A stretch of 64,000 nucleotides of DNA from Acuticoccus sp. MNP-M23. Its GTDB lineage: Bacteria > Pseudomonadota > Alphaproteobacteria > Rhizobiales > Amorphaceae. The first letter of the stretch is position 1. Each line of letters opens with the position of its first letter. The stretch lies in NCBI RefSeq assembly GCF_031195445.1, contig NZ_CP133480.1, positions 1,784,001 through 1,848,000 of the forward strand, in the 5' to 3' direction. Shown here in pieces: positions 7,613 through 22,759 of this stretch. The position numbers and the translations under genes were made by a program. The notes under the pieces were generated by a model. The model saw nothing but the letters and a program-made list of their open reading frames with translations, ran no database searches and was not told the DNA's origin.

Positions 7613-9022
7613 TCACGGAAGAAGCGTCCCGCCGGCGAAGGCCCGGACGGTCAATTCCGCAAGAAGGCCGAAGGCGAGGACGGCAGCGAGTGACGACCAC
7701 AATGCCACCCCGCTCGTCACCGACAGCACGGCGGTGCCGCCCGCTGGCTTGGCATGAAGGGCAGTGCGCCCGACGATCTTCAGATAATAGTAGAGCGATG
7801 CGACCGTGTTCATGGCCGCGGCGACGGCGAGCCAAGCATAGCCGGCTTCGATCGTCGCGAGAAACAGCGCGAGCTTGCCGACAAAGCCGGCCAGCGGCGG
7901 GATGCCGACGAGCGACAGGAGCGCCACGGCGAGCGCGACGGCGATCCACGGCCGGCTCGTGGCGAGCCCGGCATAGTCGGAAAGGTCGGTGCGGCCGCGA
8001 AGGTGGGTGACGGCGGCAAAGGCGGCAAGGTTCGCGGCAGCGTATCCGAGCATGAACAGGAGGATCGCCGGCAGCGCGAGGTTGGTGAGCCCGACGACCG
8101 CGACCGCCATCAGCACATAGCCGGACTGGGAGACCGACGACCAGCCGAGGAGGCGGCGAACGTCGCTCTGCCCGAGCGCTGCGAGGTTGCCGAGCGTCAT
8201 GGTGGCGAAGGCGGCGATGGCGATCAGCGGCCGCACGGCGAACGCGTCGGGCGGGAAGAGGTCGACGAACCGCGCCAGCGCGATGGCCGCACCGATCTTC
8301 GGAACGACGGTGAGGAAGGCCGCGGCCGGCGCAGGTGCCCCTTCGGCAACGTCCGGCAGCCAGGCGTGGGCGGGGACGGCGCCGAGCTTGAAGAGCAACC
8401 CGACGAGGATGAGGCCCGTGCCGAGGAGGAGGAGCGGCGCGTGCGCAGTCGTGGCCAGCGCCTCGGCCATCCCGTCGTAGGAGGTGGTGCCCACCATCCC
8501 GTAGACCAGAGCGACGCCGAGCACGAGGACGGCGTTGGCGAGCGCGCCGACCAGAAAATACTTCATGCCGGCTTCCAGCGAGAGCGGCCAGTTCCTGTGG
8601 TAGGCGGCCAGCGTGTAGCCGGTCACCGACGACAAGAGGACGGCGATGACGAGCTGCAAGAGGTCGGCCGCGCCCGCGAGCGCCATCGCACCGAGCATCG
8701 CGACAAGCAGGACGAAGTAGAACTCGCCGTGCCGTCTGTCGCTCTGGAACCAGCGCAGTGCCATGAGGACCACGACCGCGGTGCTCAGAAGGATCATCAG
8801 GCGCGACCAGACGCTCGCGCCGTCGATGACCCAGGTGCCGGAGAAGGTGAGCGTCGAGGTGCCGATCTGCCGGCTGAGAAGCACCGCCGCGAAGGCGATA
8901 CCGGCGAGCGCGATCACAGCGGCGAGTGAATGCAGCCGGTGCGGCACGAACGAGGCCGTCAGCAGCGCGACCACCGCGGTCACGATCACCGCGATCTCGG
9001 GGACGATGTCGCCGACGGGCAT
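7613..9022 (-). CDS. nuoN: Complex I-like antiporter subunit NuoN homologue
   Basis: The 469-residue, about 14-TM proton-translocating subunit retains the lysine-bearing segment FKLGAVPAHAWLPD and the PKIG lysine of the NuoN/M/L family. In the TM5 segment where E. coli NuoN has GIELISLP, this protein reads AVLLSSVTG, so the conserved Glu appears to be Leu. The ATG at 9022 forms TGATG with the nuoM stop (1-nt overlap). It is the last gene of the nuo-like operon. The orthologue call is by order and similarity; the quinone-linked role of canonical NuoN may differ here. Confidence 0.85.
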   Translation of the reverse strand: MPVGDIVPEIAVIVTAVVALLTASFVPHRLHSLAAVIALAGIAFAAVLLSRQIGTSTLTFSGTWVIDGASVWSRLMILLSTAVVVLMALRWFQSDRRHGEFYFVLLVAMLGAMALAGAADLLQLVIAVLLSSVTGYTLAAYHRNWPLSLEAGMKYFLVGALANAVLVLGVALVYGMVGTTSYDGMAEALATTAHAPLLLLGTGLILVGLLFKLGAVPAHAWLPDVAEGAPAPAAAFLTVVPKIGAAIALARFVDLFPPDAFAVRPLIAIAAFATMTLGNLAALGQSDVRRLLGWSSVSQSGYVLMAVAVVGLTNLALPAILLFMLGYAAANLAAFAAVTHLRGRTDLSDYAGLATSRPWIAVALAVALLSLVGIPPLAGFVGKLALFLATIEAGYAWLAVAAAMNTVASLYYYLKIVGRTALHAKPAGGTAVLSVTSGVALWSSLAAVLAFGLLAELTVRAFAGGTLLP

Positions 9023-10521
9023 CAGTCGGCCGCCACCGGAAGCGCGAGGATCGCGTTCGATGCGTGGTCGATCACGCCGAGCAGCCAGCTGGGGTAGATG
9101 CCGATCACCACGACGAAGACGAGGAGCGCGGCGAGCGCTGCGGCTTCGGTGCGGGAAAGGTCGGCAAAGCCCGTCCAGCGCTCCGGCCGCTCGCCGAAAA
9201 AGAGCCGCTGGAGCATCACCAGGAAGAGCGCCGCGGTGATGAGGATGCCCAAGATGCCGATGGCGGCGAGCCAGGGGAACACGCCGAAGGTGCCGGCGAA
9301 GATCTGGAATTCCGCCACGAAGCCCGCGAGGCCCGGCAGGCCGAAGCTCGCAAAAGCGGCGAGGATGGTCGCGGCGGCCATCAGCGGCGCGGTGCGCGCG
9401 AGCCCGCCATAGTCGGACAGCTCGTAGGTCTGACCGCGCTGCCAGAAGCCGCCGGCAATGAGGAACAGCGCGCCGGTGATGAGGCCGTGGGCGATCATCT
9501 CCACGGTGGCGCCGGTGAGGGCGAGCCGCCGGGCCTCCTCGCTGCCGATCATCGCGCCCGCGGCAGCGAGGCCGAGCACCGTGTAGCCCATATGGTTGAC
9601 CGACGTGTACGCGATCCGGCGTTTGAAATTCTCCTGCGCGAAGGCGACGATCGCGCCCCACAGGATCGAAACCACCGCCAGGACGCCGAGCCAGAAGGCG
9701 TAGCGCGCAAAGGTCTCGACCATCATCGACATCGGCATCCTGACGATGCCGTAGGTGCCCATCTTGAGGAGCACGCCCGCCAGGATGGCCGACGCCGGAC
9801 CCGGCGCATCGACGTGCGCCGGCGGCAACCAGGTGTGGACCGGAAACAGCGGCGTCTTGATGGCGAAGGCGAGGATGAAACCCAGATAGACGAGCCCGCC
9901 GGCGACCGTCGATCCCGCCAGCGGCTGGTTCGCGATGAGGACGCGCATGTCGAAGGTGAGCGTGTCGTTGGCAAGGACGAGCGCGATGATGGCAAGGAGC
10001 AGCGCCAGCGAGCCGGCGAGCGTGTAGACGAAGAACTTCAGTGCGGCCCGCTCGGCATCACCATGGCCCCAGCGGCCGATGAGGAAATACATGCCCACCA
10101 GGCTGAGATCGAAGAAGACGTAGAACACGAGAAGATCGAGCGTCACGAAGAGGCCGAGCGAGACGGCTTCCAGGAACAGCATCCAGACGAAATACTGGCG
10201 AGCGCGGCCCTTGGTGTCGGTGGGCCAGGCGATGGCGGCGACGAAGACCAGCGCGCTCATGGCGGCAATGGCAAGCGAGATGCCATCGACGCCGACGCGC
10301 CAGGCAACGCCCAGCGCCGGGATCCACGGCACCTCCACCGTCGCCTGGAAGGCGGGCGCGCTGGCGCTCGTGTCGAAGCCCACCCAGATGGCGACCAGAA
10401 GGGAAAGCGGCACCAAGGACACCGCCACAGCGAAGATACGCAGCCCGCTTTCGCCAAGGCGCAGGAAGGCAAGGGCGACGGCACCGAGGAGCGGCGTCAG
10501 GACGACGAGCGACAGAAGCAT
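9022..10521 (-). CDS. nuoM: Complex I-like antiporter subunit NuoM homologue
   Basis: The 499-residue polytopic protein has strong NuoM signatures: FYVFFDLSLVGMYFLIG, AIKTPLFPVHTWLPPAHVDAP and the VLLKMGTYGIVR segment. The TM5 Glu of the canonical FYVFFEgmLIPM motif is Asp here, a conservative change; the TM7 Lys is kept. It starts directly at the nuoL stop with no gap and overlaps nuoN by 1 nt. It probably forms one proton channel of a complex I-like membrane arm. Confidence 0.9.
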   Translation of the reverse strand: MLLSLVVLTPLLGAVALAFLRLGESGLRIFAVAVSLVPLSLLVAIWVGFDTSASAPAFQATVEVPWIPALGVAWRVGVDGISLAIAAMSALVFVAAIAWPTDTKGRARQYFVWMLFLEAVSLGLFVTLDLLVFYVFFDLSLVGMYFLIGRWGHGDAERAALKFFVYTLAGSLALLLAIIALVLANDTLTFDMRVLIANQPLAGSTVAGGLVYLGFILAFAIKTPLFPVHTWLPPAHVDAPGPASAILAGVLLKMGTYGIVRMPMSMMVETFARYAFWLGVLAVVSILWGAIVAFAQENFKRRIAYTSVNHMGYTVLGLAAAGAMIGSEEARRLALTGATVEMIAHGLITGALFLIAGGFWQRGQTYELSDYGGLARTAPLMAAATILAAFASFGLPGLAGFVAEFQIFAGTFGVFPWLAAIGILGILITAALFLVMLQRLFFGERPERWTGFADLSRTEAAALAALLVFVVVIGIYPSWLLGVIDHASNAILALPVAAD

Positions 10522-12423
10522 CTAAAAACTCACGAAGAGCGTTGCGATGACCAGCACGGAGCCGGCGGCAAGGATGGTGTAGTAGTGGTGGGCAAGGCCC
10601 GTCTGGAGGCGGCGCGCCCCGGCACCCGAGACGGCCGCGAGGCGCGCGGAGCCTTCCGGGATGCCGTCGGTGAGGCGCTCACCGAACGCCCGCGCAAGGC
10701 GAGCGAGCGCGTCGGTCGCGCTCGCAACGAACTCGACGCCGCCATCGACCGCCCGCCGGTCGGCCGCCGCGAGCGACCCGGCGAACCGCTTGAGACCGGC
10801 GGGGACGAGATGGACGGCGCGGTCGATCCCCCGCCGGTCGAGAGCCGAGAGAGCGTCTGCGGTTCTGCCGGTTGCGGCGGCGCAGAACGCAAAGACGCGT
10901 GGCAGCCCCAGCCAGTCCGCCGCGCTGGCGCTGTGCCCTTCCGTGCCGAGCAAGGGCACGCGGCGGGCAAGCAGCGCGCCTGCGGCAAGGCCCGCCACCA
11001 CGGTGAGGACCGCGAGCACCAGTTCCCAGGCCTTGGTGGGGGCGATCGCCACGCCGAGGAGCTCGGCAAGCGGCTGGTGCACGGACGGGAGCCACAACGC
11101 CGAGAGGAGCAGCGTCGTCGCCGCCAGAATGGCTGCGGCGACGGGTTCGGCGGTACCGGGACGGGATTTCGCGGTGGCGTGAGGGTCGCGGCCGAAGGCG
11201 AGCACCTGGAAGCGCGCGGCATAGATCGCGCTCAGCCCCCCCGCGAGGATAACGCCGATGGCCAGCCACACGCTTTGATGCCCGGCAGCCGCAGCGACGG
11301 CATCCTTCGTCCACGCCGCGCCGAGCGGCGGAAGGCCTGCGAGCGCCAAGGCGCCCACCGCGGTGAGCGCGCCGGTCACGGGGAGCGCGCGGCCGAAGCG
11401 CATTCTGGAAAGGTCGTAGCTTCCGGCGGCGTCTCCGGCGATCCCCGCCGACAGGAAGAGCAACGCCTTGAAGGCCGCATGGGCGACCAGGTGGAACAGG
11501 GCGACGCCCGGATAGCCGGCGCCGACCGCGACGAACATCAGCCCGTAGTGCGCCGAGGTGGAGGCGGCCAGCAGCTTCTTCGCGTGGGGCTGGAGGACCG
11601 CGACGAGCCCGCCGGCGAGCGCCGTGCCGAGGCCGATGCCGATCGTCGTGGCGCCCCAGCCGGGTGCGGCGGCGAGGTCGGCCTCGAGCCGGATGAGGAT
11701 GTAGGCGCCGGCCGCCACCATCGTCGCGGCGTGCAGGAGCGCCGAGACCGATGTCGGCCCCGCCATCGCCCTGAAGAGCCAGGGCGCGAACGGCACCTGA
11801 CCGGACTTTGCCGCCGCCGAGAACAGCACGCCATAGGCGACCAGCGCCAGCGCAGAGCCTTCCAGCGCGCTGATCGCGCCGAAAGCAAACGAGCCCGTGG
11901 CGGCGAAGGCAGCGACCGCGGCGAGGATCAGCCCGATGTCCCCGAGGCGCGTGGTGACGAACGCGGTAAGGCCAGCGCGCGGGTTGTCGGGATCGCGCCA
12001 GCGGTGGCTGATCAGCGCCCAGGATGCCGCGCCGACGAGCTCCCAGCCGATGAGGAGCGTCAGGAAGTCGGCCGCGATGACGAGAAGCTCCATGCCGCCG
12101 GTGAACGCCAGCAGGATGCCGATGAGCCGGGCGAGGCCCGGCGGCTCCTCGTGCGCGCTCGCATAGAGGAGCACCGGGAGCGCGATGGCGGGAACGAGGA
12201 TCGCGACGGCGGCCGAGAGCGGGGTCAGCGCTGCGGTCAGGACAAGGGGTTCGGACCAGATCAAACGGCCCGTCCAGCCGCCTGCGCTCGCCAGCACGGC
12301 AAGGACGAGGGTGAGGGCGAGCGTCGCAACGGCGACGGTGCCGAGGACGCGCCGCGAGCGGACCCCGAGCGCCCAAAGGGCAAGCCCCGCGAGGGCCGGC
12401 AGGACGGCGAGCGAGAACAGCAT
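10522..12423 (-). CDS. nuoL: Complex I-like antiporter subunit NuoL homologue
   Basis: The 633-residue polytopic protein keeps the Glu of IGWELVGAASW, the Lys of AAKSGQVPFAPWL, the HAATMVAAGAY segment and the later AFKALLFLSAG and WTKDAV lysines, so the proton channel residues of NuoL look complete. The C-terminal third carries the long amphipathic (HL-like) region and a last TM. It overlaps nuoK by 1 nt (TGATG) and is followed without gap by nuoM. Confidence 0.92.
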   Translation of the reverse strand: MLFSLAVLPALAGLALWALGVRSRRVLGTVAVATLALTLVLAVLASAGGWTGRLIWSEPLVLTAALTPLSAAVAILVPAIALPVLLYASAHEEPPGLARLIGILLAFTGGMELLVIAADFLTLLIGWELVGAASWALISHRWRDPDNPRAGLTAFVTTRLGDIGLILAAVAAFAATGSFAFGAISALEGSALALVAYGVLFSAAAKSGQVPFAPWLFRAMAGPTSVSALLHAATMVAAGAYILIRLEADLAAAPGWGATTIGIGLGTALAGGLVAVLQPHAKKLLAASTSAHYGLMFVAVGAGYPGVALFHLVAHAAFKALLFLSAGIAGDAAGSYDLSRMRFGRALPVTGALTAVGALALAGLPPLGAAWTKDAVAAAAGHQSVWLAIGVILAGGLSAIYAARFQVLAFGRDPHATAKSRPGTAEPVAAAILAATTLLLSALWLPSVHQPLAELLGVAIAPTKAWELVLAVLTVVAGLAAGALLARRVPLLGTEGHSASAADWLGLPRVFAFCAAATGRTADALSALDRRGIDRAVHLVPAGLKRFAGSLAAADRRAVDGGVEFVASATDALARLARAFGERLTDGIPEGSARLAAVSGAGARRLQTGLAHHYYTILAAGSVLVIATLFVSF

Positions 12424-12728
12424 CAGTTCTTGAGATCCGTGATGCCTTCGGTGACGTCCGCCTGGCTGCGCCGGTAGAGCGCGACCACGAGGGCGAACCC
12501 CACCGCCATCTCGATCGCCATGACCGCCATGACGAGGATCGCGAGCAGCTGACCTTCCGGCGCGCCGTCGAGGGCGAAGGCCCAGAAGCCGATGACGGCG
12601 AGGAGCACGCCGTTCAGGATCAGTTCGAGCCCCATCATCAGCATCACGAACGACTGCTGCGACAGCGCGCCGTAAACGCCCACCCCGATGAGCATTGATG
12701 CGACGATGAGGACCATTTGAAGTGTCAT
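12423..12728 (-). CDS. nuoK: Complex I-like subunit NuoK homologue
   Basis: The 101-residue, three-TM protein has the canonical NuoK length. It keeps GLELILNGV (first conserved Glu) and the second membrane Glu in AVMAIEMAVGFALVVALYR, both needed for proton transfer in NuoK. The ATG at 12728 gives MTLQMVLIV; longer forms would only run into nuoJ. It follows nuoJ by 7 bp and overlaps nuoL by 1 nt. Confidence 0.93.
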   Translation of the reverse strand: MTLQMVLIVASMLIGVGVYGALSQQSFVMLMMGLELILNGVLLAVIGFWAFALDGAPEGQLLAILVMAVMAIEMAVGFALVVALYRRSQADVTEGITDLKN

Positions 12729-12735
12729 TGAAGGC

Positions 12736-13347
12736 TCAGTGGTGATGATGGTGGCCGCCGCCACCCCCGCCGGTCTCCTCGGCGAGCGGGCGGCCGGCGG
12801 GGCGTCCTCCGGGCTCGAGCCCGGGCGGCATCGAGCCCTCGTCGGCGCGGCCATAGCGGCCGTCGCGTGCCGATAGGACGACGGTTGCGACCATGGTGGC
12901 GAGTAGCGTGATGCCGGCGGTCTCGAACACCAGCATCGAGGGGCCGAGAAGTTCGAAGCCGAGGTCGACGATCGCCTGCTTGTCGTCGGGCAGGGGATCG
13001 TTCGGCAGGTCGCTGGCGAGCGTCGCCACCGAAAGACCCAAGAACGCGGCGACCCCGGCGACCACCGAAAGCCGCTCCTGATGGACCATGTTCATCGGGT
13101 TGAGCCCGGCCGGGTTCATCATGAACATGACCATGAAGAGGGCCATGACCATCATCTCCACCGCCATCATGAAGATGAGCGCGATGCCGATGTAGGGCGC
13201 GGCCATCAACAGCATGATGAGCCCGACCGCGATGAAGGACAGGAGAAGCGCGAACGTGGCGCGCACCATGGAGTCGACGACGAACACCATGACGCCCGAC
13301 CAGACCGCCACCACCGAAAGGGCGAAGAAGGTGAGATCGACGGCCAC
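12736..13347 (-). CDS. nuoJ: Complex I-like subunit NuoJ homologue with His-tract C terminus
   Basis: The 203-residue protein has five TM helices of NuoJ type, including the Met-rich FMMAVEMMVMALFMVMFMMN segment that corresponds to the conserved TM3 region. The start is GTG, directly abutting the nuoH stop. The last residues read GGGGGGHHHHH after a Pro/Gly-rich linker. Canonical NuoJ has no such tail. A natural run of five histidines suggests metal binding on the loop side, which fits the metal-resistance setting but is not proven. Confidence 0.88.
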   Translation of the reverse strand: MAVDLTFFALSVVAVWSGVMVFVVDSMVRATFALLLSFIAVGLIMLLMAAPYIGIALIFMMAVEMMVMALFMVMFMMNPAGLNPMNMVHQERLSVVAGVAAFLGLSVATLASDLPNDPLPDDKQAIVDLGFELLGPSMLVFETAGITLLATMVATVVLSARDGRYGRADEGSMPPGLEPGGRPAGRPLAEETGGGGGGHHHHH

Positions 13348-14262
13348 TCAGAGCGCCTCGATGCCGGCGATGACGAGGTCCAGGAAGGCGAGCGGCAGCA
13401 GCACCACCCAGACAAGGGTCAGCATGCGCGAGGGCGGCATCAGCGCGAACAGCTTGTCGAGCACCACCAGGACGGCGAGCAGGAGAAGAGTTTTCAGGAC
13501 CACCCAGACGGGACCCGGGAGCCATGGGCCGAGATAGCCGCCGAGGAACACGGTCGCCGCCATCGCGGAGAACGAGACCAGCATCGCAAGCCGGGCGAGC
13601 TGCCAGGCCGCCCGCCCCGGCCCCGACACCTCCACCGTTGTCCCGCCGCATAGATCAGGCGAGTCCGCGTAGTCGAACGGCCCGCGCAAGGTGAGCGAGA
13701 GGCCGAGGAGGAGGAAGAGCGGCAGGCCGAGCGGCTGACGCGCGACGTTCCAGAGATCTTTCTGCGAGGCGACGATGTCGGTGACGGCGAGCGATTGCGC
13801 CGGCAGCGCCGCGGCGATCAGCACGAACATGGAGATCAGCATCACCGGCAGGCCGATGGCGACGTAGCGATACGCGCCGATCAGCGCGAGCGGGCTGTTG
13901 GCCGCCCACCCGTGCATGAAGACGGCGATCACGACGAGGGACTCGCACATCCCCCAGACCACGATCCCGGACGAAAGGTCCGTGACCACGAGGCTCGGGC
14001 CGAACGGCACGACCGTGAGCCCGATCAGCGCGAGCGCGAGATAGGAGACGGGCGCCAGAAACCACAACAGCGCGTCGGGTCGCTCGGTGGTGATGCGCTG
14101 TGCCGCAAGGTTACCGGCGGCGCTGCGCAACGGCGCGAAGAAAACCGATCCGGCGCCGGCCGCGCCGAGCGCTCCGGCGGCAGCGCGGTCGAGCACGGCG
14201 GTGATGTAGCTTCCTGCAGCGAGGAGCCCCGTCAGCATGAGGAAGGCGAGGATGGGACTCAT
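13348..14262 (-). CDS. nuoH: Complex I-like subunit NuoH homologue (NuoH/HycD family)
   Basis: The 304-residue, about eight-TM protein has the family hallmark PFDYADSPDLCGGTTVEVSG, corresponding to [21 protein letters not shown] of NuoH. The acidic loop is much reduced: several of the conserved Glu are missing. NuoH forms the quinone chamber where the peripheral arm docks, so a changed loop agrees with a changed docking partner. It overlaps the upstream fusion gene by 4 nt and is followed without gap by nuoJ. Confidence 0.85.
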   Translation of the reverse strand: MSPILAFLMLTGLLAAGSYITAVLDRAAAGALGAAGAGSVFFAPLRSAAGNLAAQRITTERPDALLWFLAPVSYLALALIGLTVVPFGPSLVVTDLSSGIVVWGMCESLVVIAVFMHGWAANSPLALIGAYRYVAIGLPVMLISMFVLIAAALPAQSLAVTDIVASQKDLWNVARQPLGLPLFLLLGLSLTLRGPFDYADSPDLCGGTTVEVSGPGRAAWQLARLAMLVSFSAMAATVFLGGYLGPWLPGPVWVVLKTLLLLAVLVVLDKLFALMPPSRMLTLVWVVLLPLAFLDLVIAGIEAL

Positions 14263-15329
14263 GCGTGGCCCTCGTGCTGATGGTGGCCGTGATGCGCGTG
14301 CCCGTGGCCGCCGTGCTGGTGCGCCGCGTCGTGGTCTCCGTCCGGCGGGTCCGCGGGGGTCATCTCACGAAGCGTGGCGTCGTGGAAACTGTTGATGACG
14401 AGCATCGCTTCGAACCATTCGAGGCCGATCAGCAGGTCAACGAGCTTGGGGCCCTCAGCCGGCGGCGGGATGGCCTTCTCGCCGCCCTCCAGCGCCGCGA
14501 TCCATGTGCGAAGACGGGCGCGCACGTCATCGCCGGGCGCGGTTGCGCCAAGGCCTTCCGGGATCGCCTTCATCATCCCCGTGCGCGCGACGAACGAGGC
14601 ATGCGGGCGCTCGCCGCGCAGCAACCGATCGGCCTGAGGGGCAAGCCCCATCAGCCGGGCCAGGCGGGCGATGCGACGTCGCGCGGCCTCCGGCGTCGCG
14701 GCAGGCGGCTCGGCGTAGGGGGCCGCGATCACCCGCGCAGCGACGATGACGTCGCCTTGCAGCGTGAGGTCGAGCGCGAGGCCGGGCGGCATTGTCGGAA
14801 GGAACGGTCCGTAGGTCGCGCGGTAGGCGTCGAGCGCGAGACCGTCGCGCACGTCGTCATCGGTCATCGCCATCGGCCGGCCGTAGGGCACGCCGCCCAT
14901 CATGCCCTCGCCGCCCTGGCCGTGGTCGCCCTCGCCCTTCCAAGGCGCCGGCGGCTCGTCGGCAAGGATGTCGCGCGCGGAGGCTCGCTCGCCGCGCACC
15001 AGGGCACGATGGGTTGCGGTGATCGCGTCCTCGATCGCCTCGGTGTCCGCCCTCACCGGCTCGGGGAGTGCGTGGCTCGGCGCATCGCCGCACACGACGC
15101 TCGCCCGGGGATGGGGAAGCTGGTCGTGCACGCGCGCCAGTGCCGCGGCGTCCGCGTCCCGTATCGCCCCGGCGACCAGCAGGATCGATGCGTGGCGGGG
15201 ACTTTTGGCGGGCACGACACGGCCGGCGGCGAACACGGCCTCCACCTGTGCCCGGCCGCCCTCGCCGATGGCGGCAAAGACGCTCGGCGGTGCGCTCGCC
15301 GCTAGGCGGCGCAGGGCGCTCACTGCCAT
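14259..15329 (-). CDS. NuoB/NuoD-like fusion without Fe-S cysteines, His-rich tail
   Basis: The protein is 356 residues. Residues 45-85 (HASILLVAGAIRDADAAALA, then VHDQLPHPRASVVCGDAP) resemble the NuoB stretch in which the subunit's Rossmann-like core precedes its cluster cysteine. Residues about 150-205, with GPFLPTMPPGLALDLTLQGD, resemble the start of NuoD/group 4 hydrogenase large subunits (GPxHP..). Cys is nearly absent, so no N2-type cluster can be built. The C terminus is a His-rich tail (about 12 His in the last 25 residues). It overlaps nuoA by 10 nt and nuoH by 4 nt, sitting exactly where nuoBCD normally lie. The domain relations are my reading and need profile searches. Confidence 0.55.
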   Translation of the reverse strand: MAVSALRRLAASAPPSVFAAIGEGGRAQVEAVFAAGRVVPAKSPRHASILLVAGAIRDADAAALARVHDQLPHPRASVVCGDAPSHALPEPVRADTEAIEDAITATHRALVRGERASARDILADEPPAPWKGEGDHGQGGEGMMGGVPYGRPMAMTDDDVRDGLALDAYRATYGPFLPTMPPGLALDLTLQGDVIVAARVIAAPYAEPPAATPEAARRRIARLARLMGLAPQADRLLRGERPHASFVARTGMMKAIPEGLGATAPGDDVRARLRTWIAALEGGEKAIPPPAEGPKLVDLLIGLEWFEAMLVINSFHDATLREMTPADPPDGDHDAAHQHGGHGHAHHGHHQHEGHA

Positions 15330-15682
15330 CGGAAGATGCCCTCGCGCCAGCCGTAGAGAATGCCGATGGACAGGATGCCGAGGAACATCCCCATCTCGAC
15401 CATCGCCTTGACGCCTTCAGCGACGTAGACGACGGCCCACGGGTACATGAACATCATCTCCATCTCGAACGCGATGAAGAGGAGCGTCATCGAATAGTAG
15501 CGCGCGTGATAGCGCTGCCAGGCGTGCGTCTTCGCCTCGCCGCCGCCGAGGAAGGGGACTTTCTGCGGCTCGGTCGATTTCGCCGGGCCAAGCGACGCCG
15601 CGTGGAGCGCAGCGACGGCGCTTGCCGCGATAATTGCCGCCGCGATGAGCGCCAGTACTTCAGACAAAAGCTTACCTGCCAA
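15320..15682 (-). CDS. nuoA: Complex I-like subunit NuoA homologue
   Basis: The 120-residue, three-TM protein has the NuoA pattern RYHARYYSMTLLFIAFEMEMMFMYPWAVV, matching RF..RFYL.AilFiiFDlEvaFLyPWA. The canonical PYECG loop reads PFLGGGEAK, so the loop cysteine that lies near the quinone site is lost, and the conserved Asp of FDxE is Glu. It is the first nuo-type gene of the operon, 121 bp downstream of csoR on the same strand. Confidence 0.88.
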   Translation of the reverse strand: MAGKLLSEVLALIAAAIIAASAVAALHAASLGPAKSTEPQKVPFLGGGEAKTHAWQRYHARYYSMTLLFIAFEMEMMFMYPWAVVYVAEGVKAMVEMGMFLGILSIGILYGWREGIFRWQ

Positions 15683-15803: not shown

Positions 15804-16082
15804 CTATGACTGCGCTTTTTGTAGGAGCGCGATCAGTTCGTTGAACTTTGCCCGCTGGTCTTCCGGATCGCCGGAAGCAATGGCGTCGGCGACACAGTGA
15901 TGCGCATGGCTCTCAAGCAGAAGGCGTTCGATCCCCTTAACCGCGGCGCGGATCGCGGCGGTCTGGATGAGGATGTCCACGCAGTAGCGCTCCTCCTCGA
16001 CCATACGCGCCACGCCGCGCACCTGTCCTTCTACCCTGGACAGCCGCTTCAGCACTGCGTCCTTGTTGCTCGTCAATGCCAC
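15804..16082 (-). CDS. csoR: CsoR-family copper-sensing repressor
   Basis: The 92-residue all-helical protein has KRLSRVEGQVRGV at the N terminus, the signature of CsoR/RcnR repressors. The metal site is Cys34, His59 and Cys63, with the Cys-x24-His-x3-Cys spacing of Cu(I)-binding CsoR; the N-terminal His of nickel/cobalt RcnR is absent. The start codon is GTG at 16082. A CsoR-like inverted repeat lies 51-67 bp upstream. The next gene on the strand is nuoA, so csoR probably heads and controls the nuo-like operon. Confidence 0.88.
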   Translation of the reverse strand: MALTSNKDAVLKRLSRVEGQVRGVARMVEEERYCVDILIQTAAIRAAVKGIERLLLESHAHHCVADAIASGDPEDQRAKFNELIALLQKAQS

Positions 16083-16701
16083 GCTATGTCGCCGACCAAG
16101 AATTGAAGCATTGCTTCGGCCTCATCGTTATCACACCCGGAGAGGGTATGCGATCGCGCTGAGCAAACCGCTCCGAGGGGCTGAGGGTCGGCGTGGATGA
16201 GATCATGGCCCCCTCGCACCGAATGCCCGATCACAGCAGCCCGTTGCGGCAAAGCGAGATAGGGCCATGATGAACACGACCGACGGCATTCGCGCGAACC
16301 CACGAGCAACGACAGGGCGTCGCCTTCGCAACAAGACAAGATACCCGGCGATCGCTACCTGCGCCACGAGGCGCTGAAGCCGGGAGCGCCGCACCGGCCG
16401 CGACCCTCGACGGGACACCGCTGGCGGCCAGCGAGATGAAGCTCCCGCTCCACCGCGTGCTGGACGAGGAATGCGAGACCGCCGACGGGATGAGTCGCGT
16501 CGAGGCCAAGCTAGTGTTCGGCCTTCAGGCCGGACTGCCAGCGGGCTACCGCGGCTTCGTCGCCTGCGACGTGGGAGCGCGCGTTGCTTCGGGAAGGGAT
16601 GGAACAGAGTCCGTAGCCGACCCGCTCTGCGCATACCGGTGACGGGTACCCTCGTCACGCCCGGCACCACCCGTCCGCGGACGCCGAAGGAGCTTTTACT
16701 C
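16083..16701. other. 619-bp intergenic region between csoR and the sorbosone-dehydrogenase-like gene
   Basis: The left part holds the presumed csoR promoter and operator (16133-16149). The rest has several overlapping open frames in this GC-rich DNA. One plus-strand frame reads through about 16300-16642 and contains LAASEMKLPLHRVLDEE, but I recognise no family, see no clear ribosome-binding site, and the minus strand is also open. It may be a gene remnant. Confidence 0.4.
16133..16149. promoter_or_regulatory. Candidate CsoR operator
   Basis: ACACCC-N5-GGGTAT is an imperfect inverted repeat with five of six arm positions paired. CsoR operators are GC-rich dyads of the form TACCC...GGGTA. Its place 51-67 bp upstream of csoR fits autoregulation and control of the downstream nuo-like genes. 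Confidence 0.4.
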
Positions 16702-18267
16702 ATGACGCAGCCATCAACTCTGACCAGCCTCACGGTCGCGCTTCTCCTGACCGCAGCGCCCGCAGCGCTCGCCGCGCCCGGCCACGACATGGGCGCGGTG
16801 GGCGAGGCCGCGAAGTCCGAAACGCCCGACGCCGCCGCAGCGGGCGATGACCCTGCGGCAGGTATCACCTCCACCGATCGCCTACCCGACGGCGCCGACC
16901 CGTTCGCCGACCAGAAGCTCGGCAAGACTTTCACAGTGCGCGAGCACGAGCTGCCCGAGCCCTACGAGGACCTCGCCTCCCGCAACCCGGCGCTTCTCGT
17001 CGATCGCGGCGAGAGCGTGCCCGCGGTTCCCGAGGGCTACGAGGCGACGCTGTTCGTGGAAGGCCTCGACAACCCCCGCCAGCTCTTCGTCCTGCCGAAC
17101 GGGGACGTCCTGGTCGCGCAGCAGGCGGCTGGCATCGTCACCTTCCTGCGCGACGCGGACGGCGACGGCACGGCCGACATCGTTTCCCGCTTCGCGCAAG
17201 GGTTCGAGGGCCCCTACGGTCTCGCCCGCATTCCCGAAGGCAAGGGCCTCGCGCACGAGGGCGACATCCTCGTCGCGGACTATCGCGGCGTCTGGCGCGT
17301 TCCCTTCACCATCGGCGAGGTGCGCGCCTCCGGGCCGGAGATGTTCGCGCCCGAGCCCATCGACGAGGTAGCGCCTCAGAACCGCCACGCGCAGCTCCCG
17401 ATGGACCACTTCCCGGTGACCGACCAGGGCGTCTTCGGCGGAAGCGAGGGGCACAACACCCGCTCGCTGGTGGTCTCGCCGGACGGGATGACGATGTACG
17501 TGGGCGTCGGCTCGGCGAGCAACGTCGGCATCGAGCCGCCCCCGCGCGCGACGATCCAGGCCTTCGACATCGGCGGCGGCAACCAGCGCACCTTCGCGAC
17601 GGGCATGCGCAATCCGGTCGGCGTCAACTTCCGCCCAGGCACCGACGAGCTCTGGGTCGCGGTCCCCGAGCGGGACGGCCTCGGCGACGAGCTCGTGCCC
17701 GACTACCTCGCACAGGTGGAGGAGGGCGACTTCTACGGCTGGCCCTACGCCTACACCGGCTCCAACCCGCAGCCGCAGTTCGCCTCGATGGCGCCCGAGG
17801 GGCTGATCGAGACCTCGATCCTTCCCGAGGTGCTGTTCGAGTCCCATTCCGCCTCGCTCGACTTCGCCTTCGCGCCGGAGGCGTTCGGGGAGGCGTACGC
17901 GGGCGACGCCTTCGTGGCGCTGAAGGGCTCTTGGAACAGGTCGGACCCCACCGGCTACAAGGTGGTGCGCGTGCCGTTCGAGGACGGCGAGCCGACCGGG
18001 TCCTACGAGAACTTCGTCGTCAACTTCTGGGTCCGCGGCGACGATCGCGCCGTCGTGTGGGGCCGCCCGGTGGACGTCGACTTCCTGCCGGACGGCGCGA
18101 TGCTCGTCGCCGATGATACCGGTGGAACCATCTGGCACGTCGCCCCGACCGATGCCCCGGAGGCGACGCCGACGACAGCCGCGGGCGATCCGCCGGGTGC
18201 GAACGAGCCAGTGGTCGAAACTTCGGATGGCGGCGCCGCTGATGTCATCGTCGTCCAGCCCGACTGA
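16702..18267 (+). CDS. Secreted PQQ-type sorbosone/glucose dehydrogenase-like beta-propeller protein
   Basis: The 521-residue protein has a signal peptide ending near ALAAPG (residues 1-25). A six-bladed propeller follows with family strings LFVLPNGDVLVAQ, GGSEGHNTRSLVVSPDG, ATGMRNPVGVNFRPGTDELW, EGDFYGWPYAYTG and ALKGSWNRS. These match the sorbosone dehydrogenase (GSDH) family, periplasmic quinoproteins that oxidise sugars or related aldehydes. The first 100 residues and the Thr/Pro/Ala tail are low-complexity additions. GAAGGAG precedes the ATG by 10 nt. It stands alone; substrate is unknown. Confidence 0.82.
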   Translation: MTQPSTLTSLTVALLLTAAPAALAAPGHDMGAVGEAAKSETPDAAAAGDDPAAGITSTDRLPDGADPFADQKLGKTFTVREHELPEPYEDLASRNPALLVDRGESVPAVPEGYEATLFVEGLDNPRQLFVLPNGDVLVAQQAAGIVTFLRDADGDGTADIVSRFAQGFEGPYGLARIPEGKGLAHEGDILVADYRGVWRVPFTIGEVRASGPEMFAPEPIDEVAPQNRHAQLPMDHFPVTDQGVFGGSEGHNTRSLVVSPDGMTMYVGVGSASNVGIEPPPRATIQAFDIGGGNQRTFATGMRNPVGVNFRPGTDELWVAVPERDGLGDELVPDYLAQVEEGDFYGWPYAYTGSNPQPQFASMAPEGLIETSILPEVLFESHSASLDFAFAPEAFGEAYAGDAFVALKGSWNRSDPTGYKVVRVPFEDGEPTGSYENFVVNFWVRGDDRAVVWGRPVDVDFLPDGAMLVADDTGGTIWHVAPTDAPEATPTTAAGDPPGANEPVVETSDGGAADVIVVQPD

Positions 18268-18472
18268 CGAGGCGGGCGCGACGCGCTGCTGCCGTCGCGC
18301 CCCAGACCTAAGGCTGGTGCTCGGCACCTGGTTCGCCATGGTCGCGTGACATCATGCTGGGGTTGGCACCACGGCCTACGTGGTCGCCTCGCTCATGCCG
18401 GCGTCAACGGGGCGAGTTAAAGGTCGGAGAGAACTTTCGGTCAACAACGTCAAGGTTCGAGTGACGGGAAAG

Positions 18473-19825
18473 TCAAGACGCCGTTCCTTCGGGATCTTCG
18501 GTCTTGCCGTGTTTGCTGTGATCAGAACTGTCCCGCGGCGGCCTGAGACGCAGGAAGACGTGCTCGAAGATGAAGACCGCTCCCATCCCCGCCAACGCGA
18601 TCAGCACGATGGTGCGGTCGCTCTGCCATTTCAGTATCGTGAAGGCCACGAGCACGACAGCGTCCAGCCCGACCGCCGTTAGCATGACCCACCCCCGCGC
18701 CCCGATGTCGTCGCGCAGGTTTCGCCAGACACCCCAATGGATGAGGATGTCCATCACAAGGTAGAAGAACGCGCCCAGCGAGGCGATGCGGCTGAGATCG
18801 AAGAAGATCGTCAGCGCCCCGGCGATCACGACCGTGTAGACCAACGTGTGATCGCGGATCGTGCCAGGCATCCCGAAATGGCTGTGCGGGATCAGCTGCA
18901 TGTCGGTCAGCATCGCCAGCATTCGCGACACGGCGAAGATGCTCGCGATCACGCCTGAGGCTGTCGCCACGAGTGCCAGCGCGACCGTCAGGTAGAAGCC
19001 GGTCCGCCCGAGGGCGGGCTCCGCGGCTTCTGCCAACGCGTAGTCCTTCGCGACCACGATCTGGTCGAGCGGCAGGCTGGAGCCCACGGCGAAGGCGACG
19101 AGCAGGTAGACCACCGCACAGATTGCGATCGAGATGACGATGGCGCGGCCGACATTGCGGTGCGGCCGGGTGATTTCCGCGCCGGAGTTGGTGATCGTCG
19201 TGAAGCCCTTGAAGGCGAGGATCGCGAGCGCCAGCGAGGCGATGAAGCCGACGGGCCCCGTCGTCTCACCATCGCCGGTCGCCTCGAAGGACATGCCGCC
19301 GGCCCAGAGAGCGGCGATGCCGAATAGAGCGATGCCACCCACCTTCAGGACAGCCATGATCTGCGACAACAGCCCCACCGAACGGTTGCCCGACGCGTTG
19401 ACGATGTATGCGGCGATGATGAGCCCGACGCCTATCGTGGGGACGAGCCAGCTCCGCTGTTGTATCCCGAGGCCGCGCAGCAGGTAGTTGGCGAAGGTCC
19501 GCGCGACGAGGCTTTCGTTGATGACCATCGACAGCGCCATCAGAAGCGCGGCGCCCGCAGCGACCGTGGTCGGCCCGTAGGCCTTCTGCAGGATCATGCC
19601 GATGCCACCGGCGGAGGGCCAGGCGTTCGACATTTTGACGTAGGTGTAGGCGCTGAATGCGCTCACCACAGCTCCGGCGACGAAGGCCATCGGAAACCAC
19701 GGACCTGCGAGTTCCGCGATTTGCCCGGTCAGCGCGAGGATCCCTGCGCCGATCATGACGCCAGTCCCCATGGCAATCGCATCCATCAGACTGAGGCTGT
19801 TCTGCTTGTACTCTTCCTTTGTCAT
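18473..19825 (-). CDS. APC-superfamily amino acid/polyamine permease
   Basis: The 450-residue, about 12-TM protein has the APC signatures SLMDAIAMGTGVMIGAGILALTGQ in TM1 and FKGFTTITNSGAEITRP in TM6. The substrate cannot be told. The ATG at 19825 overlaps the upstream ATC-hydrolase-like gene by 4 nt, so it is the last gene of a coupled operon. The C-terminal tail is polar and His-containing. Confidence 0.88.
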   Translation of the reverse strand: MTKEEYKQNSLSLMDAIAMGTGVMIGAGILALTGQIAELAGPWFPMAFVAGAVVSAFSAYTYVKMSNAWPSAGGIGMILQKAYGPTTVAAGAALLMALSMVINESLVARTFANYLLRGLGIQQRSWLVPTIGVGLIIAAYIVNASGNRSVGLLSQIMAVLKVGGIALFGIAALWAGGMSFEATGDGETTGPVGFIASLALAILAFKGFTTITNSGAEITRPHRNVGRAIVISIAICAVVYLLVAFAVGSSLPLDQIVVAKDYALAEAAEPALGRTGFYLTVALALVATASGVIASIFAVSRMLAMLTDMQLIPHSHFGMPGTIRDHTLVYTVVIAGALTIFFDLSRIASLGAFFYLVMDILIHWGVWRNLRDDIGARGWVMLTAVGLDAVVLVAFTILKWQSDRTIVLIALAGMGAVFIFEHVFLRLRPPRDSSDHSKHGKTEDPEGTAS

Positions 19826-20604
19826 TCTGCCCTTTCCGTTTCGCAGGCGCCGGCGCGGGAATGCTGCGGCTCGCCTGTGGCGCGGGCCGCCCAGCACATG
19901 TCGCAGACCGGGTCGCCGGCCGAGAGAGTGCGCTCGCGGCCATAGTGCCCGCGCCGCCCGTCACCGGCGATGAGATCGGCGCCGGGCCAGTCGTAGAGGC
20001 ACCAGCTTTGCCGGAACGCCTCCAGCACCTCCGGGTCTCGGTTCCGCTCTGACACCGCTCGGGCGAGGCTTTGCGGCGGACAATGCGTGAAGTGCGTGCG
20101 CACCTGTGCCGCATCGCGAACGATTTCGGCCTCGTAGCCGGGCGCACCCACGGGGCGAAAAGGAAAGACCAACAAGGTGTTAAGGGTCCACCGCAAGCGC
20201 CGTGCCGGATCGCGGGTGATCAGGCGGAACGGAAGGGAGGTCGAAAGCAGCATCCGCCGGTACAGGTCCCATCCCATATCGGCGACGAGCGCGCGGCTGC
20301 AGCTTGCGGCGACGCCCTTTCTTCGCAGGGCCCTGTCGGCGGCAACGGTTACGACCGCGAGTTCAGCGATGAGAGGGCTGCCGCCCGACAGTTCCGCCGC
20401 CGGGAACCCCGCCCGGTGGAGCGATGCGATCTCGTCGGTCAGCGCGGTGCGGAATTCATCGGATTCGGCGTCGAGCCAGCGGACACGGTCACCGGATGTC
20501 AGCCGGATTTCCCGGTGGATCAGATGCCTGCGGGCCGTCCGCCAAACGACCCACCGCATCAAGCGCCGCAGCGCACGCCATCGCAGTGGCGCGGAATCAG
20601 CCAT
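19822..20604 (-). CDS. L-2-amino-thiazoline-4-carboxylate hydrolase-like protein
   Basis: This is a 260-residue soluble protein. The second half has HFTHCPPQSLARAVSE, a conserved Cys and Asp in SWCLYDWPGADLI, and the closing CDMCW, which resemble the ATC hydrolase family (PF14196) with its catalytic Cys. The true substrate of most members is not ATC. The ATG at 20604 gives MADSAPLRW and overlaps the TVP38 gene by 8 nt. It overlaps the permease gene by 4 nt, so the two products may work on the same compound; that is inference. Confidence 0.6.
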   Translation of the reverse strand: MADSAPLRWRALRRLMRWVVWRTARRHLIHREIRLTSGDRVRWLDAESDEFRTALTDEIASLHRAGFPAAELSGGSPLIAELAVVTVAADRALRRKGVAASCSRALVADMGWDLYRRMLLSTSLPFRLITRDPARRLRWTLNTLLVFPFRPVGAPGYEAEIVRDAAQVRTHFTHCPPQSLARAVSERNRDPEVLEAFRQSWCLYDWPGADLIAGDGRRGHYGRERTLSAGDPVCDMCWAARATGEPQHSRAGACETERAE

Positions 20605-21358
20605 CGTCGGTAGCCTCCCTGGCCTTCTTCCTTCCTCCTCGTAGCGCGACGACGAGCAGCGGTATTGCCGTCGCGAGCCCGAGGCCGAGCGCGATCCACT
20701 CCGCGCTGTCGAAATCGCCATCCATGGCGGCGCTTCCGAAATGCGCCAGCACGAAGCTCGCCGGCAGGATGCCGGCCATCGTGGCCAGCGCGAAGCGCCA
20801 GAAATGCAGGCGGCTCAGTCCGGCGGCATAGCTCATGGCGTCGAAGGAGACGAAGGGCAGAAGGCGGCTGATGAACACGCTCAGCGTCAGCGCATTTTGC
20901 GAACCCAGCAACCCGTAGGCGGCCTTGTCGCCAAGCCAGCGCTCGATCGCGCCCCGGCCAACGCCGCGCGCGATCAGGAACGCGGCGAGCGCGCCGAGTT
21001 CGGACCCGACCGCGACGTAGGCGGTGCCAGCGTAGTGCCCATAGGCCGCGCCTGACGCCAGCGCGATGGGTGCGCTCGGAATGGGGCTCGCTACCACGGC
21101 GGCGGTCATCAGCGCGATGATTGCCAGCGGGCCCCAAGCGCCGGCTTGTTCGATCCATATCTCGATCTGGCTAAGGTCGAGATCCACGGGAACCCGATCA
21201 AGGAGAAACGCCATTGCAATCGCCGCGACAACAGCCGCGAGAAGCGATGCTGCGAGACTCGAGCGTCGGCGCTTTCCACGAGTGTTTGGGGCATCGTTCG
21301 GGTTCCCGCCGTCCGCACTGAAGCTCACTGGATGTGCCGTTCCGAACGCGGCTGCCAT
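20597..21358 (-). CDS. TVP38/TMEM64 (DedA/VTT) family membrane protein
   Basis: The 253-residue protein has a TM at 35-53 and a VTT domain with SPIPSAPIALASGAAYG, ELGALAAFLIAR and SRLLPFVSFDAMSYAAGLS. These are the family's conserved Pro, Gly, Glu and Arg positions, linked in other members to lipid scrambling or transport. It overlaps the next gene by 8 nt within a minus-strand operon. Its substrate is not known. Confidence 0.86.
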   Translation of the reverse strand: MAAAFGTAHPVSFSADGGNPNDAPNTRGKRRRSSLAASLLAAVVAAIAMAFLLDRVPVDLDLSQIEIWIEQAGAWGPLAIIALMTAAVVASPIPSAPIALASGAAYGHYAGTAYVAVGSELGALAAFLIARGVGRGAIERWLGDKAAYGLLGSQNALTLSVFISRLLPFVSFDAMSYAAGLSRLHFWRFALATMAGILPASFVLAHFGSAAMDGDFDSAEWIALGLGLATAIPLLVVALRGGRKKAREATDDG

Positions 21359-21409
21359 GGCAAAACCGAGGAGAAAGCCGCTCGGTGGCGCCGCGGCGCA
21401 TCGCGGCGC

Positions 21410-21796
21410 CTAGGCCGCATCCAACGCCCGCGCGAGCCTGTCGCGGACTTGTCCCGCGACCTCGTGCAGTTCGGCATTGTTCACAGCGGACATCGAAGCC
21501 ACCGGATCGATAGCACTCACCTCGGTGCCGCCATTCACGCTGCGCAGAATCACGTTGCAGGGGAGCATGGCGCCGATGCGCGGCTCCAACTCCATCGCCT
21601 TCCACGCCATCTTCGCGTTGCAGGCGCCGAGGATCAGGTAGCCGTCCATGTCTTCGTCGATCTTCTGTTTCATCGTGGCCTTGACGTCGATCTCGGTCAG
21701 GACGCCGAAGCCCTCGGCCTTGAGCGCCTCGCGAACGCGCCCGTCCGCGTCCTCAAGGCTCGTGTCGGCCAGCAGGCGGTCATGCGTGTATTGCAT
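21410..21796 (-). CDS. DUF302-domain protein
   Basis: The 128-residue protein has the DUF302 pattern: ALKAEGFGVLTEIDVKATMKQK, then YLILGACNAKMAWKAMELEP and LPCNVILR, with the conserved Cys at each place. It is cytosolic, with no signal peptide. DUF302 proteins are common in metal and sulfur loci, with unknown function. It lies 51 bp before the TVP38 gene and 86 bp after the EF-hand gene. Confidence 0.88.
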   Translation of the reverse strand: MQYTHDRLLADTSLEDADGRVREALKAEGFGVLTEIDVKATMKQKIDEDMDGYLILGACNAKMAWKAMELEPRIGAMLPCNVILRSVNGGTEVSAIDPVASMSAVNNAELHEVAGQVRDRLARALDAA

Positions 21797-21882
21797 CGCA
21801 ACAAAGCTCCTCTGCGTGCGAAATGGTTGCCGGGCCGCAGGGTCGCTCCGGCCCGGTCGTGTGCGTACTGCGGCGGGGCGGG

Positions 21883-22587: not shown

Positions 22588-22759
22588 CGTGTGATCCTCC
22601 GTTTTGCATTGCAGGGCCTTATGTCTGGCTCTCACATCAAAACGGAACCGGCGTCATGGACGGATTTGTATCCGCATGTCGCAGGCGCGCGCTCTGATAC
22701 AAACGGTGACACACCGGGCGCTGACCGCGCAGTGCCGGCTTGGGTAAACAGGATGCGCT

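Follow-up and report, generated by a model that had tools for sequence, protein, structure and literature searches.

The 64,000-nucleotide window analysed here (Acuticoccus sp. MNP-M23, contig NZ_CP133480.1, positions 1,784,001–1,848,000) carries on its minus strand, at 7613–15682, eight tightly packed open genes encoding NuoA, a NuoB/NuoD-like fusion, NuoH, NuoJ, NuoK, NuoL, NuoM and NuoN. Sequence comparison indicates that the E-channel region of these complex I-like proteins is re-lined with Met, His and Glu at invariant positions. We propose that complex I gave rise to this set, that the set lost its redox function and took on the handling of copper, and that it most probably works as a proton-driven exporter of Cu(I) and perhaps also Ag(I), a reading we regard as evenly poised between right and wrong. 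The more specific form of the proposal, a heavy-metal pump made from complex I in which the quinone-to-pump channel was re-lined with Met so that proton flow through the antiporter modules would expel Cu(I), falls slightly short of an even chance. The link to copper is strong; the transport mechanism is inferred, with the chances for and against it about equal. The main functional clue is a stripe of Met residues in NuoJ that was absent from the initial annotation of this DNA.

The membrane core and the antiporter subunits

Residues were compared across 83 family members (82 loci and the window) and seven wider relatives, which are the Actinomycetota and Sulfitobacter plasmid copies described below, giving 90 members in total. 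The canonical reference consists of 22 complex I sets, from 20 relatives of the host, the host itself and E. coli. The NuoH, L, M and N alignments, in which a length cut was applied and split frames are represented by their best-scoring piece, contain 77–82 rows. Median Met content is 8.3% in NuoA, 8.3% in NuoJ and 8.9% in NuoK, versus 3.3, 3.4 and 3.0% in the canonical proteins (a 2.4–3-fold increase), and the medians for H, L, M and N are below canonical. Met accounts for 25 of the 178 invariant columns in A, J and K versus 13 of 498 in H, L, M and N (Fisher p = 1.6e-7, where neither columns nor sequences are independent). The segments of the core that carry the family-specific residues are as follows:

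13117–13170, minus strand: NuoJ helix 3 Met stripe, M60, M61, E64, M65, M68, M72, M76 and M77 (alignment and helix wheel)
15446–15490, minus strand: NuoA helix-2 segment, M65, E73, M74, E75, M76, M77 and M79, around the E-channel acids (alignment)
12739–12867, minus strand: His-rich C-terminal tail of NuoJ, ending HHHHH

NuoJ M60, M61, M65, M68, M72 and M76 are kept in all 83 family members and in all seven wider relatives, and E64 is present in 82 of the 83 (the remaining sequence has an X) and again in 7/7. Canonical proteins have V, Y, V, L, V and L at the six Met positions and Ala at the position of E64. On a helix wheel, M61, E64, M65, M68, M72 and M76 share one face, a degree of clustering reached by 0.3% of random sets; this set was chosen post hoc without M60, and the figure is 1.2% when M60 is included. 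Met at the stripe positions is absent from five solved NuoJ/NdhG chains (a cyanobacterium, two Paracoccus versions, Thermus and E. coli) and from four solved NuoK chains (a cyanobacterium, Thermus and two chloroplasts).

The E-channel residue set named for E. coli in the available part of one study includes NuoJ V58, Y59 and A62, NuoK A73, NuoA D79 and NuoH E157 (PMC13324432). In the family, V58 and Y59 are Met in 83/83 members and A62 is Glu, with the same replacements in all seven wider plasmid relatives, so that Y59 is Met in all 90 sequences compared. NuoK A73 is Met in 75/83 family members and in 7/7 wider relatives. The NuoK Met residues M29, M31, M67, M70 and M74 adjoin the channel acids that are kept, with E36 retained and E72 present as Glu in 74/83 members and as Asp in 9/83.

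NuoA contributes family-specific H53 and H59 and Met at positions 65, 74, 76, 77, 79 and 99. The two histidines are invariant and lie in a loop where the canonical proteins mostly have Asp, and the helix-2 Met residues, found in 82/82 family members, replace canonical V/L/V/A/L. At the position of E. coli NuoA D79 the family has Glu, whereas Asp is retained in the seven wider relatives, in which, by E. coli numbering, A82M and L85M occur in 7/7, V80M in 3/7 and L83M in 0/7. Met content among these relatives is 9–12% for NuoJ, 9–11% for NuoK and about 3–8% for NuoA. NuoH gains E107, H117, M145 and R224, and both E157 and E241 are replaced; E157 is Met, Ile or Leu in 82/82 family members, yet Glu in 5/7 wider relatives. 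A NuoJ tail with at least three His residues is present in 80/83 family members (the exceptions are loci L046, L089 and L093) and in 1/7 wider relatives. We assume the topology of complex I, with the NuoJ C-terminus inside and the NuoA N-terminus outside, and the placement of Arg residues in NuoJ agrees with a C-terminus on the inner side.

The proton-channel residues of the antiporter subunits are mostly intact. NuoL E144, D178, K229, K342 and K399, NuoM K234, K265 and E407, and NuoN K247 and K395 are each kept in 80/80 sequences, and NuoN K217 in 79/80. This extends across the family the retention of the NuoL and NuoM lysines recorded in the initial annotation, and adds losses beyond it: NuoN helix-5 E133 is Leu and NuoM E144 is Asp in 80/80, alongside the replacement of NuoH E157. 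Because NuoN lacks the helix-5 Glu and NuoM has Asp for Glu, coupling would differ in detail from that of complex I. The possibility that the arm works as an ion antiporter, raised from the gene set at the outset, is supported.

One form of that idea is an accessory antiporter for copper stress, in which an Mrp-like H+/Na+ or K+ exchanger would restore pH or ion balance once copper has damaged respiration, and the metal residues would act as a sensor or gate while copper itself is not transported. Three antiporter-like subunits with their Lys and Glu residues mostly kept would suit this role, as would the K+-channel-like and APC permease genes beside some copies. Those genes, however, lie near only 10 and 5 of 84 loci, respectively, and the conservation across two phyla of ten E-channel Met residues and one Glu (one of the Met positions in 75/83) seems to exceed the needs of a sensor. 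We consider this explanation unlikely.

Gene content, the fused cap and ancestry

The genes of the operon are arranged as follows:

15320–15682, minus strand: nuoA-like gene, 120 residues from a mechanically assigned TTG start (PF00507, E = 3e-24)
14259–15329, minus strand: NuoB/NuoD-like fusion, 356 residues, the presumed cytoplasmic cap (NuoB-type fold, without the conserved Fe-S cysteines)
13348–14262, minus strand: nuoH-like gene, 304 residues (PF00146, E = 1.8e-41)
12736–13347, minus strand: nuoJ-like gene, 203 residues (PF00499, E = 9.6e-18)
12423–12728, minus strand: nuoK-like gene, 101 residues (PF00420, E = 6e-15)
10522–12423, minus strand: nuoL-like antiporter subunit, 633 residues (PF00361, E = 2e-46)
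9022–10521, minus strand: nuoM-like antiporter subunit, 499 residues (PF00361, E = 1e-63; TIGR01972, 472 bits, cut-off 263.8)
7613–9025, minus strand: nuoN-like antiporter subunit, 470 residues (PF00361, E = 3e-61; TIGR01770, 332.4 bits, cut-off 332.6)

Seven of the eight proteins pass the Pfam cut-offs and the fusion is below its own; the gene set originally described is present and open throughout, with the NuoD part of the fusion recognizable through its relatives. E. coli NuoB, CD, E, F, G and I queries (cut-off E = 1e-4) gave zero matches in the window and in 86 related loci. The absence of separate Fe-S or electron-input subunits, first noted for the operon, is therefore a property of the loci searched, and no separate nuoB, C, D, E, F, G or I gene was found in the window or in these loci; the idea of hidden electron-input genes was rejected on the same searches. 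Elsewhere on the host chromosome the same queries match an ordinary complex I, whose A, H and J–N are likewise present. Because the Fe-S queries match only this complex I, the eight-gene set is a second, redox-free set beside the normal enzyme. A NuoF-family protein is present in 44/44 searchable carrier genomes, in a family that also occurs in other enzymes.

The fused cap contains two further segments of interest:

14865–14921, minus strand: invariant loop GQGG-x-GMMGG-x-PYGRPMAM, with M143, M144, M153 and M155 invariant in 54 sequences
14262–14339, minus strand: His-rich C-terminus with 11 His within the last 40 residues, present in some relatives only

In the window protein only the NuoB part is detected, below curated cut-offs (PF01058, 0.007; TIGR01957, 3e-6, residues 36–82). 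An AlphaFold2 model has a mean predicted local distance difference test score (pLDDT) of 85, and Foldseek aligns it with NuoB-type chains over ~140 residues, with template modelling scores of only 0.22–0.28 when normalized by the query. The fusion is thus predicted to have a NuoB fold. Profile comparison with hhalign gives a probability of 96 for NuoB over 46 columns and of only 2 for NuoD. Because the latter comparison is weak, homology to NuoD rests on PF00346 matches above the Pfam cut-off in 4/10 relatives tested: Halomonas (2.7e-7), Salinisphaera (8e-8), Sulfitobacter (1e-11) and Rubrobacter (4e-17). The HP..HG β1–β2 hairpin of canonical NuoD is the histidine motif of the quinone site. 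In the weak hhalign alignment, GPFLPTMPPG of the fusion is paired with GPQHPAAHG and lacks the His pair. No column of the 54-row fusion alignment contains an invariant Cys, and the window protein has a single Cys.

Residues 133–153 of the fusion have low pLDDT when the protein is folded alone. Beside the GMMGG loop site, 2/7 wider relatives contain a heavy-metal-binding domain (HMBD, PF19335). The domain lies inside the NuoB/NuoD-like cap in both (L192:7405-9108 and L194:6922-9084), so that nature itself has joined a subunit of complex I type to a metal-binding module. Three further wider relatives have His-rich inserts near the loop, for totals of 32–37 His per protein, and the remaining two have neither feature, one of them (L191) apparently annotated from too late a start. 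As for the His-rich tails pointed out in the initial annotation, both are real, with that of NuoJ conserved and that of the fusion confined to some relatives.

Ancestry was examined with a tree of 78 antiporter-type proteins (from 14 family loci and 10 canonical sets, with six outgroup proteins among the 78), built by a quick method in which rooting and depth are not settled. The family L, M and N proteins are each monophyletic (Shimodaira–Hasegawa-like approximate likelihood ratio support of 100, 100 and 99, respectively). Family M and N adjoin canonical M and N, and family L lies near canonical L, whereas none of the family clades includes the Hyf proteins of E. coli or the two host proteins presumed to be Mrp, all of which sit on long branches. 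This placement indicates that the origin of the set is in, or is common with, the membrane arm of complex I and not in Mrp. Another host protein with a single antiporter domain (G000:C1:1268230-1268889, L009) falls among the L-type group on a long branch.

Copper neighbourhood, regulation and distribution

Genes directly flanking the window operon include the following:

15804–16082, minus strand: csoR-type metal sensor, 121 bp upstream of the operon (PF02583, E = 1e-29), with C34, H59 and C63
6525–7496, minus strand: DUF305/DUF6692 protein downstream of the operon (PF03713, 5e-9), with hydrophobic N-terminal segments by eye

The top NCBIfam model for the csoR product is RicR, a copper-sensing type, at 84 bits against a cut-off of 175, and its Cys34/His59/Cys63 spacing is that of copper CsoR. 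The downstream protein also matches PF20402 (8e-4) and a CopM-family model (5.6e-9), both below cut-offs. On Roseivivax, Acuticoccus and Halomonas plasmids, RefSeq annotation beside the operon lists CueR, a Cu-type P-ATPase, multicopper oxidase, CopB, CopC, CopD and related genes in varying sets. Heavy-metal P-type ATPases, metal regulators, multicopper oxidase or DUF305 occur in 5/6 Actinomycetota plasmids, and the Rhodococcus plasmid has none of these.

Flank counts cover 84 loci including the window. A copper-type gene is present in the flanks (mean 12 kb) of 51/84 loci versus 4/37 arbitrary 20-kb regions of carrier genomes, an enrichment whose size is biased upward because the copper panel was partly chosen from the neighbours of the family itself. 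The near copies L040/L044 and L041/L098 were both counted in this comparison, and three of the four control matches are weak MerR-family matches. Multicopper oxidase is found near 30/84 loci versus 0/37 controls and Cu-ATPase near 17/84 versus 0/37. The identity of the neighbouring copper genes was taken from RefSeq and Pfam.

Promoter sequences provide a second line of evidence. A CueR-like palindrome (spacing 6–7, up to two mismatches, within 280 bp around the nuoA start) was found at 5/84 loci versus 5/2000 random windows; an earlier scan with spacing 5–9 was noisy. The five loci represent four different sequences, since L079 and L082 share one sequence and are not independent. CueR-like boxes also precede 8/18 Cu-ATPase frames examined. 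L068, L069 and L109 have the box and no panel copper gene beside them, and the regulatory hint at these loci is therefore independent of their neighbours. At the window operon, csoR stands directly upstream in place of a CueR-like box. Together with the copper-gene flanks, the invariant core Met residues and the metal-binding domains in relatives, these boxes make the connection to copper or another metal stronger than could be seen from the window, where csoR and the His-rich tails had first suggested it.

These associations would also fit a different role for copper, in which copper is oxidized or reduced at the Met-rich site in place of NADH and quinone, and the membrane arm pumps protons outward. 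A similar proposal was made by the authors of a Marinobacter study, whose available text reports co-expression of related genes in a copper cluster (PMC8233155). Metal-like residues occupy the link between redox and pumping of complex I, and multicopper oxidase genes are found at the loci counted above, with cytochrome c genes near 10/84. On the other hand, no complex I Fe-S subunit is encoded in or beside the operon, the NuoD-like hairpin appears (in a weak alignment) to lack its His pair, NuoH E157 and E241 are replaced, and sites made of Met alone would fit Cu(I) binding and movement better than electron transfer. We judge outward pumping powered by copper redox to be distinctly improbable. 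An unknown driving partner, the other option raised in the initial annotation, may still exist, but no gene for a partner with redox centres was seen in every neighbourhood; cytochrome c and multicopper oxidase genes lie near some copies.

The metal itself may be other than copper. In such a case the complex would transport or sense another soft or transition metal (Ag, Hg, Zn or Ni), and the proximity of copper genes would merely reflect the accumulation of metal genes on resistance islands. The window segment 28959–34176 encodes two MerR-family regulators (top model MerR, below cut-off), a pyridine-nucleotide disulphide oxidoreductase, MerF- and MerT-like proteins and a phage-type integrase, and is by its predicted products a mercury-resistance-like segment within the same island; a merB gene lies near the Pseudonocardia copy. 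HMBD domains and His tails are not specific for copper. Against another metal are the CsoR ligand pattern and top model match, both of copper type, the many neighbours that are copper genes by annotation or Pfam, the CueR-like boxes before some copies and the preference of Met stripes for Cu(I) and Ag(I). The chance that the complex transports or senses another metal of this kind is slim.

Several neighbours are recorded here as side observations. Window positions 16471–22635 encode a glucose/sorbosone dehydrogenase-like protein, an APC permease, a VTT-domain protein, a DUF302 protein and an EF-hand protein; VTT genes occur near 10/84 loci, and APC genes, as above, near 5/84. An EgtB-type protein is encoded near 6/84 loci. 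An ergothioneine-type egtB is annotated directly downstream of the Halomonas plasmid copy (L042), and similar frames were seen by eye downstream at L113, L115 and L116. A Cys-rich protein is encoded directly upstream of nuoA at L095 and L120 (~9.1–9.6 kb); that of L120 has a DUF326 domain, presumably copper-storage-like, and that of L095 looks similar by eye. Cytochrome c and K+-channel-like genes occupy neighbourhoods of 10/84 loci each. No tRNA genes were found in the 64-kb window.

The loci were collected by scanning genome contigs with the fusion, from which the best 80 of 117 confirmed relatives were used, and by fusion matches to five plasmid records. L126 and L127 share their contigs with L098 and L041 and were dropped; gene order and Fe-S searches thus cover 86 loci. 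For flank counts, L043 (split frames) and L086 and L118 (contig ends) were also dropped, leaving 83 loci or 84 with the window; L044 was additionally dropped for residue and alignment counts, leaving 82 loci or 83 sequences with the window. Carriers belong to orders that we assign from genus names: Rhodobacterales, Hyphomicrobiales, Rhodospirillales, Sphingomonadales, a few Burkholderiales and many Gammaproteobacteria, the last including Halomonas, Chromohalobacter and Salinisphaera. The order A-BD-H-J-K-L-M-N is complete in 76/86 Alpha-, Beta- and Gammaproteobacteria loci (73/80 of the best scan relatives). A NuoJ search matched 31 plasmid records, of which 12 were opened: the five fusion-matching records and seven more. 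The seven further plasmids, from Mycobacterium (two), Pseudonocardia, Arthrobacter, Rubrobacter, Rhodococcus and Sulfitobacter, have the same eight-gene order in 7/7 cases, so that the arrangement first seen in the window recurs in distant genomes. The Mycobacterium copies are on plasmids of M. avium and M. paragordonae (L190, L195), near heavy-metal P-type ATPases.

Within the host genus, 4/8 genomes have a long fusion match. The fusion profile matched at least 1/385 genomes across the class, namely the window's own, and the NuoJ profile matched 10/398 across the phylum, five with E < 1e-100 (the window's own included) and five between 1e-45 and 1e-16. From these counts the operon is an accessory, patchy trait. 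In one strain of Roseivivax marinus the operon and its copper genes occur twice, in closely similar form, on two plasmids (L040, L044).

Loss of most electron-input genes could also mean that the set is a decayed or redundant complex I copy without a function of its own, and single copies do look damaged. Among the ten incomplete loci, contigs end at L061, L086, L118 and L122, and frames are split or mis-called at L040, L043, L044, L087 and L119, although all eight genes of L040 and L044 are annotated in RefSeq. The tenth, L046, from a Kiloniellaceae metagenome-assembled genome, ends inside NuoL (~12.8–13.7 kb of the locus), lacks M and N in the following 7 kb and has a NuoJ without the His tail; it is possibly a decayed copy or a misassembly. 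The genes of L043, on a Vreelandella sulfidaeris plasmid, are in many split frames, for which sequencing error and decay are both possible. General decay was nevertheless rejected for the family as a whole on the conservation of order and residues: the operon is open and collinear in the 76 complete loci, including distant relatives in which frameshifts would have been expected of a decayed copy, and family-specific residues are invariant across two phyla. The probability we attach to a set without function is close to nil.

Proposed function and comparison with known systems

In the proposed Cu(I) exporter, cytoplasmic Cu(I) would be collected by the NuoJ His tail, the two NuoA loop histidines and the Met/His/HMBD segment of the fused cap, which itself would close the former quinone cavity. 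The path to the outer side would run along the NuoJ helix 3 stripe and the Met residues of NuoK and NuoA that face it, as suggested by helix position and the E. coli literature. Energy would be supplied by inward proton flow through L, M and perhaps N. The E-channel, normally the link from quinone chemistry to pumping, would now couple copper to proton movement. Export is favoured over import because the metal sites would be on the inner side. Two properties expected of a Cu(I) transporter are seen, association with copper-resistance genes and conserved soft-metal ligands within the membrane, the geometry of the latter being judged by helix wheel only.

Several observations weigh against this scheme. 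The NuoJ His tail is absent in 3/83 family members and 6/7 wider relatives. The wider relatives also have a weakly Met-rich NuoA (3.3–7.5%), retain Glu at NuoH E157 in 5/7 and have Glu at NuoN K217 in 2/7. Loss of the NuoN helix-5 Glu and the Asp at NuoK E72 in 9/83 members mean that coupling may differ from that of complex I. No panel copper gene is present in the flanks of 33/84 loci, the panel enrichment is inflated as stated above, and at the cut-off used the CueR-like box is absent at 79/84 loci, the window operon included. The mercury genes in the window leave room for a metal other than copper at this locus. Finally, the Met residues may be invariant for the sake of packing or of tolerance to oxidants and have no part in transport.

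How chemistry is coupled to pumping through the E-channel and helix 3 of NuoJ is much debated in work on complex I, as described in the available part of PMC13324432. In the eight-gene set quinone chemistry is apparently gone, the pump modules are kept and the coupling region is changed, and the coupling step could thus be studied without electron transfer. If Cu(I) is moved, the complex would represent a copper-resistance pump of a new class, which environmental bacteria and some opportunists carry on plasmids.

The closest published case is a set of nuoADHJKL-like genes within a copper cluster of Marinobacter atlanticus, co-expressed and with nuoM and nuoN reported missing; in the text covered, the authors suggest copper redox as an energy source (PMC8233155, 2021). 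Judged by its description alone, this cassette is probably a family member or a close relative. It differs in the reported absence of nuoM and nuoN, and the covered text contains no residue analysis (PMC8233155). Partial Nuo sets on plasmids are described elsewhere, in a main text that, as far as available, lacks the word copper (PMC12361115). Term searches of the accessible text of PMC10141476, PMC11371751 and PMC12803027 gave no mention of Nuo or NADH. In the portion of the open-licence literature covered, we found neither the Met-lined core nor the fused metal-binding cap described, nor the distribution of the set across phyla.

Among related complexes, the Mrp antiporters belong to the same superfamily, have no redox function and exchange ions with protons. 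The eight-gene set differs from them in having NuoH, NuoA and a B/D cap; in the tree, its L, M and N proteins are closer to those of complex I than to the two presumed host Mrp proteins. Group 4 hydrogenases and the Ehr complexes (Mbh, Hyf) have a NuoB/NuoD-like peripheral part on an H/L/M-type arm, and are defined by NiFe or degenerate CxxC motifs in the NuoD-like subunit together with an Fe-S protein in the operon. The eight-gene fusion, in contrast, has no conserved Cys, no NuoB- or NuoI-type Fe-S gene stands beside it, and NuoA and NuoJ are present; Hyf B, D and F lie outside the L, M and N clades of the family. CusA and CTR1 are Cu(I) transporters with a Met-lined membrane path, and it is this path alone that provides the analogy; their folds are unrelated and no homology is claimed. 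Relative to complex I, the eight-gene set is without the four N2-cluster cysteines of NuoB, without C, E, F, G and I, and without the catalytic part of D; NuoH E157 (in the family), NuoJ Y59 and NuoN E133 are replaced and the E-channel is rebuilt with Met, His and Glu. What it shares with complex I is the homologous A, H, J, K, L, M and N subunits, with the antiporter Lys and Glu residues mostly kept.

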